Assembly (NCBI GenBank): GCA_021298155.1
Contig: JAJTEN010000007.1
Location: 1 to 64,000, forward strand
Reading direction: 5' to 3'
DNA length: 64,000 nt
DNA from: Sphingobacteriales bacterium
GTDB taxonomy: Bacteria > Bacteroidota > Bacteroidia > UKL13-3
Position numbers and translations under genes: made by a program. Positions 10,433 through 20,027 of the stretch are shown here, piece by piece. Below the pieces are notes generated by a model. That model saw only the letters and a program-made list of their open reading frames with translations, had not been told where the DNA came from and ran no database searches. Position 1 is the first letter of the stretch; the number at the start of each line of letters is the position of its first letter.

Positions 10433-10487
10433 ATAAATTATCCCCGAAAATCGGAAGTAGCGCTTCCGATTTTCGGGGATAATTTAT
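10433..10487 (-). terminator. Strong intrinsic terminator, 25-bp perfect stem
   Basis: ATAAATTATCCCCGAAAATCGGAAG / CTTCCGATTTTCGGGGATAATTTAT with 5-nt loop; T-rich on the minus-strand 3' side. Confidence 0.85.
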
Positions 10488-13258: not shown

Positions 13259-15931
13259 TTAATTATCGTAAGCCAAATATGGAGCAAGCCATTTTTCTAT
13301 GTATTCTACAGATTCTCCTTTTCTGCTGGCATAATCTAGCACTTGATCTTTATCTATTTTACCAACGGCAAAATATTTGCTTTCTGGATGGGCAAAATAA
13401 AAACCACTAACTGCTGCAGTTGGGTACATGGCGTAGTTTTCTGTGAGGGTAATGCTAGTCTCTTTTTCGGCTTGCAACAAATCAAATAACTTGCGCTTTT
13501 CGGTATGGTCTGGACAAGCAGGGTAACCCGGTGCTGGACGAATACTAATGTAATTTTCGTGGATGATTTCATCATTTGTAAGCTGTTCGTTTTCCACAAA
13601 TCCCCAATATTTGGTTCGAACCAACTCATGCATTTTCTCTGCCATGGCTTCTGCCAATCTATCTGCAATGGCTTTAATCATGATGCTATTATAATCATCA
13701 TGATCGGCCTCATATTTCTCAATAAGCGGCTCAATGCCTATACCCGCTGTAACTGCAAAAAAACCAAGATAATCTTTTTTAGCAGTTTCTCTTGGCGCTA
13801 TAAAATCTGCTAGACATAAATAAGGTAAATTGGCCGCTTTTTCATTTTGCTGGCGTAAGAAATGGAAAGTTTGCTCACCGCTTGGGGTTTGTATAACAAC
13901 ATCATCTCCTACCGAATTGGCTTCATAAAAACCAATCACGGCGCGCGCTTCCAATAACTTATTGGCAATAACCTCATCTAACATTTTATTGGCATCATCA
14001 AATAGTTTTTTGGCTTCAAGGCCAACTATTTTATCATCAAAAATACGCGGATATTTTCCTACCAATTCCCAAGTGAGGAAGAAGGGTGTCCAATCTATTC
14101 GTTCTCTTAATTCAGCCAATGAAAAATCAATAAAGGTTTTATTTCCTAAGAAAGTAGGCGCTACAATTTCGTCATAAGAAAGTGCCATTTTCTTTTCGCG
14201 CGCAGCAGCTAAGCCTACGAAATTCTTGTCTTTCTTTCTGTTTTTATAGTCTATTCTAAACTGTGCATACTCTTCTTTAATGCGCTGAGTAGTGCCTTCT
14301 ATCTGGTCTTTACTAATTAAACTCTGCGCAACAGGAACGCTTTTGCTGGCATCTAATACATGCACTACTGGTCCGCTATACACAGGGTCTATCTTCACAG
14401 CAGTATGCGCCCTAGACGTGGTAGCACCACCAATCAACAATGGAATTTTCATTCCCAAACGTTCCATTTCTTTGGCCACATGCACCATTTCATCTAGGCT
14501 TGGCGTAATTAAACCACTTAAGCCAATTACATCTACTTTTTCTTTTATAGCCGTTTCTAATATCTTTTCTGCCGGCACCATTACCCCAATATCAATGATC
14601 TCAAAATTATTACAAGCCATTACTACACCCACAATATTTTTTCCAATATCGTGCACGTCACCTTTTACAGTAGCCATTAAAATTTTGCCTTGCGAGGTAC
14701 TGGTATCGCCACTCAATTTCTTCTCGGCATCCATGTAAGGCAGCAAATAAGCCACTGCCTTTTTCATTACCCTTGCACTCTTAACCACCTGCGGCAAGAA
14801 CATTTTGCCTGAACCAAATAAGTCGCCCACGATATTCATTCCCGCCATTAACGGACCTTCAATTACTTCTAGAGGTTTATTAAATTGCAAGCGCGCTTCT
14901 TCGGTATCTTCATCAATAAATTCTACAATACCTTTTACCAAGGCATGGCTCAACCTATCGGCAACTGGGGCATTTCGCCACTCTAAATCGAGCACTTTTT
15001 CTTTGCCTTTACCTTTAACTTTCTCGGCATATTCTAATAACCTTTCTGTGGCATCATCTCTTCTATTTAAGAGCACATCTTCTACCATTTCTAGTAGTTC
15101 TTTGTCTATTTGATTGTATACCTCTAGCTGACTAGGATTCACAATTCCCATGGTCATACCGTTCTGTATGCCATGGTATAAAAATGCACTATGCATGGCT
15201 TCGCGCACTTTATCGTTTCCTCTAAACGAGAACGACACATTACTTACGCCTCCACTAATTTTTGCACCAGGTAAATTGTCTACTATCCATTTACTTCCCC
15301 TAAAAAAATCGATGGCATTATTGCGGTGCTCTTCCATACCGGTTGCTACCGGAAAAATATTAGGGTCGAAAATAATATCGCCAGCCGGAAAATGTACTTT
15401 TTCAGTTAATATTCGGTATGCACGTTCGGCAATTTCTATGCGTCGTTCAAAGTTATCGGCCTGACCCAATTCATCGAACAACATCACAATTACGGCAGCA
15501 CCAAAACGCTTTACTGTTTTGGCTTGGCGCACAAATTCTTCCTCACCCCCTTTAAGCGAAATAGAATTTACTACACACTTGCCTTGTACGCATTTTAATC
15601 CGGCCTCAATTATTTCCCATTTAGACGAATCTATCATAATAGGCACGCGTGAAATATCGGGCTCAGAAGCAATCAATTTGAGGAAACGTTCCATGGCTTC
15701 TACACCATCAATCATTCCCTCATCCATGTTAATATCAATTATCTGCGCACCACCTTCTACTTGCTCTCTGGCCACAGCCAAAGCAGCATCAAAATTTCCT
15801 TCACGTATTAATCGCAAAAACATCTTAGAACCCGTAACATTGGTGCGTTCACCTACGTTTACAAAGTTGGTATCTTTGGTAATTACAAGGGGCTCGAGTC
15901 CGCTTAATCTTAATGTATAATCTTTGTTCAT
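13259..15931 (-). CDS. metH: B12-dependent methionine synthase, C-terminal part (pterin-binding, B12-binding, activation domains)
   Basis: [51 protein letters not shown]. True start taken as MNKDYTL, not the repeat-derived MVYRQ extension. Confidence 0.95.
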
Positions 15932-15945
15932 TGTTTGTATTTTTT

Positions 15946-15974
15946 GTCGATAGACCATGGACCATAGACCATGG
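15946..15974 (+). repeat. Heptad repeat unit R1
   Basis: GTCGATAGACCATGGACCATAGACCATGG. Confidence 0.9.
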
Positions 15975-15982
15975 CTAAATTT

Positions 15983-16336
15983 TTACTTGTTTAATGTTAT
16001 TCTTAATGATTGTAACATTTTAATTAAAACCTCACAATCTTCATATATTTTATCAAAATCCTCTTTACTAATAATCTCTCTTGTTTTGGCAATATGTATG
16101 CAACAAACAACTTCTATAGCAGACCTAATGGCATATCCAACAAATTTTGAAAACTCAGGGTTTGATTGTCCTTGCGACCCTTCTGCAATATTTAAAGCGA
16201 TAGAATCTGAGGCTCTTTTAATTTGAGAGCTTAGCACATAGACTTCATCTTTGGGAAATTTCTTTACCACAAAATCAATAAAACCAATTAATTCAATTGA
16301 CTTTCTCCAAACCGCTAAATTTTCAAATTTAAACAT
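15983..16336 (-). CDS. Four helix bundle protein (23S rRNA IVS/S23 family, TIGR02436-like)
   Basis: FENLAVWRKSIELIGFIDFVVKKFPKDE...LSSQIKRASDSIALNIAEGSQGQSNPEFSKFVGYAIRSAIEV. Confidence 0.93.
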   Translation of the reverse strand: MFKFENLAVWRKSIELIGFIDFVVKKFPKDEVYVLSSQIKRASDSIALNIAEGSQGQSNPEFSKFVGYAIRSAIEVVCCIHIAKTREIISKEDFDKIYEDCEVLIKMLQSLRITLNK

Positions 16337-16343
16337 ACCTTCA

Positions 16344-16372
16344 CTATGGACTATGGTCTATGGACTATGGAC
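16344..16372 (-). repeat. Heptad repeat unit R2 (inverted)
   Basis: CTATGGACTATGGTCTATGGACTATGGAC. Confidence 0.9.
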
Positions 16373-16373
16373 A

Positions 16374-17369
16374 TTATGCTAATGGCTTCCTTGGTTCATA
16401 CCTAGCAGCCATTTCTGCTATGGCTTGGATGTGATCTGGGGTGGTGCCGCAGCAACCACCGAGGATATTTACCAAGCCTTCTTTGCAAAACTCTTCTACT
16501 TGCTTGGCCATGGCTGCCGGAGATTCATCGTATTCGCCAAACTCATTGGGTAAGCCAGCATTTGGGTAAGCGCTTACAAAGAATGGTGCATTGGCATTTA
16601 ATACTTGCAAATATGGGCGCAGGGCGCTGGCACCAAGGGCGCAATTAAGGCCAATACTCAGCAATGGCATGTGCTGCATGCTAATTAAAAAGGCTTCGGT
16701 AGTCTGACCCGATAAGGTTCTTCCTGAGGCGTCTGTAATGGTGCCAGATATCATGATGGGATATTGCTTACCTAACTCTTCAAACAATTCATCAACGGCA
16801 AACAATGCAGCTTTTGCATTTAGTGTATCAAAAATAGTTTCAATCAAAATAATATCTACCCCACCTTCAATAAGCTTTCTGGCTTGTTGTTTGTATGCCA
16901 CCACCAACTCATCAAAAGTAACTGCCCTAAAGCCTGGGTCGTTTACATCCGGACTAATAGACAAAGTTCGGTTGGTTGGACCCATAGCACCTGCCACAAA
17001 ACGTGGTTTGGCAGGATTAAGTGCTGTTACCTCATCGGCCACCTCACGGGCAATTTTGGCACTTTCATAGTTTATTAAATCTACCCATTCCTGACCCAAA
17101 TCATAGTCGGCCTGAGCAATGGTGGTACCACTAAACGTATTGGTTTCAATGATATCGGCACCCGCATCAAAATATTGACGGTGGATGGCTTTAATTACAT
17201 CTGGCCTGGTAAAACTTAGCAAATCATTATTACCCTTTAGTGGGCGTTGATGATTAACCAAAGCTTCATTCCTAAAGTCTTTCTCTTCCAGCTTATACCG
17301 CTGAATCATGGTACCCATAGCACCATCTAAAATGAGAATGCGTTGTTTTAATATTTCGTTTATATTCAT
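16374..17369 (-). CDS. metH: Methionine synthase homocysteine-binding part
   Basis: [41 protein letters not shown]. True start taken as MNINEIL. Confidence 0.95.
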
Positions 17370-17375
17370 GTTTGG

Positions 17376-17405
17376 GTCTATAGTCCATAGTCGATAGACC
17401 ATAGC
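17376..17405 (+). repeat. Heptad repeat unit R3
   Basis: GTCTATAGTCCATAGTCGATAGACCATAGC. Confidence 0.9.
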
Positions 17406-17428
17406 AAAAGCTAGGATCGGCCAAAAAC

Positions 17429-17457
17429 TATGGACTATGGACCATGGTCTATGGACT
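17429..17457 (-). repeat. Heptad repeat unit R4 (inverted)
   Basis: CTATGGACTATGGACCATGGTCTATGGAC. Confidence 0.9.
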
Positions 17458-19717: not shown

Positions 19718-19746
19718 GTCGATAGTCCATGGTCCATAGACCATAG
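19718..19746 (+). repeat. Heptad repeat unit R6
   Basis: GTCGATAGTCCATGGTCCATAGACCATAG(C). Confidence 0.9.
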
Positions 19747-19780
19747 CACTTTAGATTCAAAATAATATCATAAATTTAAA

Positions 19781-19815
19781 AGAGAGTGTACCCTTGCGGT
19801 ATGCTCTCTTTTTGT
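19781..19815 (+). terminator. Intrinsic terminator after deaD
   Basis: AGAGAGTGTAC-CCTTGCG-GTATGCTCTCT followed by TTTTTG. Confidence 0.7.
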
Positions 19816-19886
19816 TTTGTATACAAGATAATTATTTTGATTTTATAGATTAATTCGTTTCCAAAAACATTAATTTGCGAGGGAAA

Positions 19887-19918
19887 ATAGACCATAGACC
19901 ATAGACCATAGACGATGG
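19887..19918. repeat. Heptad repeat unit R7 (degenerate ends)
   Basis: ATAGACCATAGACCATAGACCATAGACGATGG. Confidence 0.8.
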
Positions 19919-19998
19919 ATTATGTATTATAGTTAAGGGTTCCTATATGAGTGTATTAAAATAAAAGAAAAAAATAACCTTTGAAGTAGAAATAAAAG

Positions 19999-20027
19999 CT
20001 ATGGACTATGGTCTATGGTCTATCGAC
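19999..20027 (-). repeat. Heptad repeat unit R8 (inverted)
   Basis: CTATGGACTATGGTCTATGGTCTATCGAC. Confidence 0.9.

Follow-up and report, generated by a model that had tools for sequence, protein, structure and literature searches.

The peculiar inserts within 23S rRNA called intervening sequences (IVSs) have been on record since about 1990. To our knowledge, the function of the S23 protein and the movement of IVSs have not been explained, and the heptamer repeats of cyanobacteria, known for about as long, have no recognized source. The IVS in the 23S gene of Coxiella burnetii is 428 nt long and combines an S23 ORF, a 28-bp terminal stem, and tandem heptamers, at the first of which it is cut by RNase III (PMC4990558). 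An S23 ORF has also been reported within inserts in both 16S and 23S rRNA of CPR bacteria (PMC11270868). Heptamer repeats of the STRR kind have been reported between hupS and hupL (PMC2670836), and TAACTGA heptamer repeats are known in Beggiatoaceae, Cyanobacteria, and Bacteroidetes (PMC4679880). In the literature searched, mostly open papers, we found no published case of an operon in which heptamer arms flank an S23 gene.

The window (the whole stretch of 64,000 nucleotides that was analyzed) contains such a case. The initial annotation had described an S23/IVS-type gene between two inverted arms inside a split metH operon, and PF05635/TIGR02436 scores, the alignment of the arms, and Pfam all bear this out. 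Genes and arms are ordered on the minus strand as the homocysteine S-methyltransferase part of metH, the 5' arm, the S23 gene, the 3' arm, and the pterin/B12/activation part of metH:

15946..15974, minus strand: 3' arm as the metH operon is read, an inverted counterpart of the 5' arm; four heptamers in tandem, with outer tip GTCGATAG
15983..16336, minus strand: S23/IVP four-helix-bundle gene, 117 aa, of the FKFE clade of TIGR02436/PF05635, with low dN/dS in most pairwise comparisons
16344..16372, minus strand: 5' arm, four tandem heptamers (TCCATAG/ACCATAG) with TAG stop codons in sense
16374..17402, minus strand: upstream part of the split metH, with the homocysteine S-methyltransferase domain PF02574 (Pfam)
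13259..15958, minus strand: downstream part of the split metH, with pterin-binding, B12-binding, and activation domains (Pfam)

The cassette totals 427 bp, with inverted arms of 29 bp, and is spaced from the two metH parts as had been described. The four-helix-bundle family proposed for its ORF stands, but the ORF encodes 117 rather than 118 aa; the repeats are 29 bp long and match at 24 of 28 aligned positions. In profile searches, the ORF (15983-16336, minus strand) scores 109.5 bits against PF05635 (curated cut-off 33.8) and 102.6 bits against TIGR02436 (curated cut-off 24), and since it exceeds the curated cut-off over its full length, it belongs to the S23/IVP family. Solved relatives, by sequence, are 2gsc and 2rld. 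PF05635 is the only domain in the ORF, which does not qualify as a homing endonuclease, and no phage record matches the protein, leaving a phage origin unsupported. The cassette sits between the metH parts and outside any 23S rRNA gene, an anatomy and a location that agree with the proposed IVS-like unit in a protein-coding operon. The longest ORF for the downstream metH part begins within the 3' arm (MVYRQKIQT...), and the conserved start is probably a later ATG (MNKDYTL). In-frame ATG codons (ATGGTCTATCGAC, read MVYR...) are provided by heptamer arms at window positions 15929-15958, 17385-17402, and 20000-20025, where ORF callers have likely stretched the starts of downstream genes into the repeats, giving misannotated starts.

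What the initial annotation missed is that the arms are tandem heptamers (four per arm, of the form YATRGWC) and that some 20 sites of the genome, most of them gene-less, have the same heptamer. The arms of the window are beyond chance, since a 19-mer of the heptamer, with one mismatch allowed, has 14 matches in the window as against 0 in 100 shuffles, and since the arm pair outscores 100 of 100 shuffles of its own flanks.

Pattern and profile searches gave the genome-wide counts of heptamers and S23 genes in the window's genome (G000). The 19-mer has 35 exact matches in its 2.5 Mb, and the reversed control has 0. Because many sites with the same heptamer are inverted pairs with only noncoding DNA between them, the window cassette belongs to a dispersed set in which it is the one that carries a gene. 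The window holds the following gene-less sites:

17380..17454, no strand assigned: gene-less inverted pair of the same heptamer, directly upstream of metH
19720..20025, no strand assigned: gene-less heptamer arrays (19720-19748, 19887-19920, and 19999-20025) between deaD and the next gene

G004 was considered as a clean empty site for 19887-20025 and rejected, as other heptamers are present there. At the corresponding deaD-like junction of G004 (contig C1, ~276.2-277.6 kb, L209), an extra ATPase-like gene is preceded by GACGGAAATTGAC-type repeats.

A search for the same repeat pair around other TIGR02436 genes of the genome had been proposed, with homologues lacking flanking repeats taken to speak against the unit. 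The sole other copy (contig C7) does have inverted heptamer arms, but their sequence differs. This copy is decayed, whereas G004 has the cassette intact at the same EamA/mutS junction; TTACGAA arrays bracket both. Between rfbB and rfbA, an S23 cassette with a small additional ORF is present in G001, whereas nothing but mixed heptamer remnants is found in G000. A cycle in which cassettes arrive, decay, and leave their arms behind would fit both cases. Inverted heptamer arrays also bracket the genes for ribosomal protein L19 (L225:265-613) and rfbA (L212:6983-7898) in the window's genome, where they apparently come from separate scars on each side.

A different kind of repeat lies at window positions 10437-10483, a single palindrome of 47 bp (ATTATCCCCGAA...TTCGGGGATAAT) between asnS and the next gene. 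In five genomes (G001, G004, G008, G014, and G003), a 393-aa gene, which Pfam identifies in G001 and G004 as an AAA_14/DUF4143 ATPase, has one such palindrome on each side. The window thus seems to hold the unoccupied site of a single-gene cassette of a different kind.

How general is the armed architecture? To score arms, each gene's upstream 200 nt were aligned with its downstream 200 nt in reverse complement, with a threshold score of at least 12 and with ORF starts assigned by rule. Inverted arms were found at 72% of 60 TIGR02436 loci, almost all from Bacteroidota, versus 6% of 448 control genes (p=4e-20), which came from the genome of the window and from related genomes, and a smaller test on neighboring genes gave the same picture. 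The score for direct repeats does not rise around TIGR02436 loci. Within arms, the self-match is 0.68 at a lag of 7 and 66% at a lag of 14, versus about 25% at other lags. By this scoring, about 30-45% of the sampled S23 genes have no detectable arms, the sample being mostly each genome's best match, with many metagenome-assembled genomes and with loci whose kinship makes them incompletely independent. In Chloroflexota, Patescibacteria, and Omnitrophota, sampled via six genomes, arms flank 57% of 28 loci versus 13% of 23 controls (p=1e-4), and none of 20 S23 loci from outside Bacteroidota lies in rRNA (Rfam). On cyanobacterial plasmids, 9 of 17 S23 loci have arms, some of them near-perfect arrays: TAGGGAG between ribonucleotide reductase genes and AGGTGAC between cas6 and cas4. 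The S23 cassettes between cas6 and cas4, on plasmids of Anabaena sp. 90 and Pseudanabaena galeata (among L304, L309, and L310), lie in sense, as does one in Picosynechococcus between cas10/cmr2 and cmr3. GxxExxY genes (TIGR04256), presumably PD-(D/E)XK-like and forming cassettes separate from those of S23, have inverted arms of the CACAGAG type with a looser period at 67% of 24 loci (p=1e-8). The armed S23 architecture itself is near certain.

The sequence of the arms follows the clade of the protein. In the FKFE clade, which comprises the close relatives of the window protein, most members have (R)GWCNAY-type arms, whether at metH or at junctions unrelated to it, and this extends even to Anaerolineales. 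Across 43 loci, arms are the more alike the higher the identity of the proteins, over all pairs and equally with the comparison restricted to different junctions (Mantel r=0.395, p=0.0005), a match that could come in part from shared descent of whole cassettes. The two arms of one locus are more alike than arms drawn from different loci. TAG is present in the 5' arm, read in sense, at 75% of loci and in the 3' arm at 16%, and translation coming from outside therefore tends to stop in the arm. Since the arms are inverted copies, this is true for both strands, and the TAG bias is by itself no pointer to RNA. No enrichment of ATG in the 3' arm was found across all clades.

The cassettes have decided preferences of orientation and place. 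Of 52 TIGR02436 genes with callable neighbors, 44 are in sense between two codirectional genes, and 3 have such a pair as neighbors but are antisense to it. Some junctions recur across families: metH, sufB/sufC, hydroxyacyl-CoA dehydrogenase/thiolase, succinate dehydrogenase, and a carbon-nitrogen hydrolase beside a gene of the agmatine-deiminase type. The metH junction is occupied, depending on the species, by an FKFE-clade S23 gene with YATRGWC arms, by an MRDFKKY-clade S23 gene with GCTTCTGGC arms (YATRGWC remnants persisting outside in two species), by a GxxExxY gene with CACAGAG arms, or by a gene-less inverted repeat; in three other, distant families, the metH parts abut with zero gap. 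The junctions of relatives thus differ in what they hold and do not share one gene without repeats, the finding that would have spoken against an IVS-like unit. Most members of the genus have an S23 cassette at metH, and two of the locus searches, being queried with the window protein itself, favor metH, but the MRDFKKY and GxxExxY cases turned up independently of them. Occupation of metH requires 7 changes on the S23 protein tree, and at least 3 of them are forced by well-supported branches. Among congeners, every metH junction reached has a cassette or a gene-less repeat, so there is no clean empty site from which a target-site duplication could be defined; the initial annotation had found no clear one. 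At a junction between acetyltransferase-like and DegT-aminotransferase-like genes (among L280-L286), G004 has an S23 cassette and G001 a GxxExxY gene. At a junction of the rsmD/coaD kind, shared by G004 and G001, a GxxExxY gene is apparently present in both, with long GCCACGAATGCACGAAT-type repeats.

At metH, the cassette has a recent history of its own. Its S23 gene differs between G000 and G001 at 1 of 351 positions (dS 0.014), whereas 93 other 117-codon windows from the same two genomes have a minimum dS of 0.222 and a median of 0.779. The edges are sharp, with 4 differences in the 427 positions of the cassette versus 8 of 90 and 6 of 90 in the adjoining flanks. Between G000 and G004, the gene has a dS of 0.124 versus a median of 1.32, but 3 of 260 windows are lower. 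In the three comparisons among G010, G008, and G005, the S23 gene is again less diverged than metH by a smaller margin. The pattern resembles homing, in that related species share the insertion site and the cassette is younger than its flanks. Because dS is far below that of the flanks and the edges are sharp, it seems that the site stayed fixed and that its cassette was replaced or exchanged once the species had diverged. Constraint on synonymous (codon) sites was considered as the source of the low divergence; alone it is unlikely, because dS between G000 and G010 is saturated, like that of metH. The S23 protein itself seems to be under purifying selection, since dN/dS is low in most pairs (e.g., 0.024/0.304).

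With a probability of roughly 0.6, we read the window cassette as an IVS-type (S23/IVP) selfish cassette with clade-specific heptamer arms that is exchanged between species at operon junctions. The unit would consist of one S23 gene and its own clade-specific heptamer arrays as inverted ends and, lodged in sense between the genes of an operon, it would be transcribed by the host operon. The S23 protein, whose solved relatives form pentameric rings, may recognize its own heptamer arrays, a contact for which, taken alone, the chances are about even. Cassettes from other strains would enter the junction by recombination or gene conversion via the resident arrays; when a gene decays, its arms would stay as gene-less inverted repeats (scars) able to capture another cassette, thereby offering homology to the next arrival. 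The mobility of the cassette, which the initial annotation had proposed alongside excision, is distinctly probable, considering the clade-specific arms, the different cassettes at one junction, the lower divergence of the cassette than of its flanks, and the zero-gap junctions elsewhere. Neither a Y1 transposase nor a reverse transcriptase was found in the window's genome by searches covering these two. Recognition at the level of DNA, with dependence on host transcription, is favored at the same strength as the model as a whole.

The alternative that survives best acts on RNA: as with 23S IVSs, the arms would pair in the metH mRNA, and RNase III would remove the S23 segment to leave two separately translated metH messages. 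The initial annotation had envisaged such a stem, and the arms do form the closing stem of the predicted fold of the cassette RNA (z=-4.75). The 23S IVS of Coxiella has the same anatomy (PMC4990558), the bias toward sense placement in operons is 44:3, and arms match their own partners better than they match arms of other loci. Pairing on the sense strand, however, predicts an excess of G-U over A-C among the mismatches between arms, and the counts are 38 G-U-compatible to 47 A-C (p=0.39). A-C mismatches predominate in the arms of GxxExxY genes (18:7), and the stem of the window has A/T mismatches at variable positions of the heptamer. Because the excess is lacking, heptamer identity rather than RNA pairing seems to be what is kept, and the RNA-level account is rather unlikely.

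If the arms were instead the terminal inverted repeats of a MITE-like nonautonomous DNA transposon, moved in trans with the S23 gene as passenger, one could understand why the genome has many gene-less inverted pairs of the same heptamer with consistent outer tips; terminal inverted repeats common to dispersed copies are indeed found. But no target-site duplication is at hand (there being no clean empty site among congeners), arms vary among loci in copy number and sequence, arm sequence tracks the S23 clade, so strong a bias toward sense placement in operons is atypical, and the genome lacks a Y1 transposase, the transposase family searched. This account is improbable.

Equally improbable is a regulator in the service of the host, the resident S23 protein binding the arms in its own mRNA to tune the ratio of neighboring subunits (the metH halves, SufB/SufC, NrdB/NrdA). 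Placement in sense within operons of interacting proteins, low dN/dS in most pairs, and presence at metH in most genus members would all be expected of it. Yet relatives have an unrelated GxxExxY gene, a gene-less repeat, or zero gap instead; cassettes at one site share a recent origin despite diverged flanks; and decayed copies exist. Finally, that heptamers grow by slippage in spacers, with S23 genes among them by chance, is very hard to credit even though arrays occur without S23 genes and occasionally bracket ordinary ones (ribosomal protein L19, rfbA), as the arms are inverted rather than direct, lie near the ORF, are 12 times as frequent as around control genes, have sequences tied to the protein clade, and are present in several phyla.

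The reading of the window cassette as a selfish, exchangeable unit can be extended. S23/IVP genes may be the core of mobile cassettes, found across phyla in sense at operon junctions, with clade-specific tandem-heptamer inverted ends; 23S IVSs would be the special case in rRNA, the dispersed heptamers of Bacteroidota and cyanobacteria (STRR) would largely be their arms and scars, and GxxExxY genes with CACAGAG arms would be a parallel class at the same junctions. We would give this extension as much credence as doubt. If S23 genes and heptamer arrays belong together, the movement of IVSs and the origin of the heptamers become testable questions. A further consequence would be that small selfish inserts sit in many conserved operons and that mobile elements are the source of many proteins annotated as "four helix bundle" or "GxxExxY". 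Such a class of cassettes may explain repeated sequences that have been puzzling for decades.

Several known systems share parts of this arrangement. REP/BIME elements with RAYT pair a small gene with cognate dispersed inverted repeats, as here; unlike them, the window's genome has no Y1 transposase, and the arms consist of heptamer arrays, not of REP hairpins. Avd of diversity-generating retroelements is a four-helix-bundle ring protein of related fold, but the window's genome, unlike Avd systems, lacks a reverse transcriptase. The 23S rRNA IVS of Coxiella burnetii is alike in its ORF family, in its length (428 versus 427 nt), in its imperfect terminal inverted repeats of 28-29 bp, in its tandem heptamers at the 5' side, and in its predicted closing stem. 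It differs in that the window unit lies in a protein-coding operon and has heptamer arrays in both arms and an ORF with low dN/dS, any RNA excision being putative here. TAACTGA repeats are likewise intergenic heptamer arrays near start codons with a patchy distribution, but they are almost all direct and of a single sequence, and an association with S23 is not mentioned (PMC4679880). The heptamers of the window are tandem 7-nt repeats in intergenic space able to form hairpins, as are the STRR of cyanobacteria. Whereas STRR have been described as gene-less, however, the repeats considered here are the inverted arms of S23 genes, with five strong cases on plasmids of Nostoc, Anabaena, and Calothrix.
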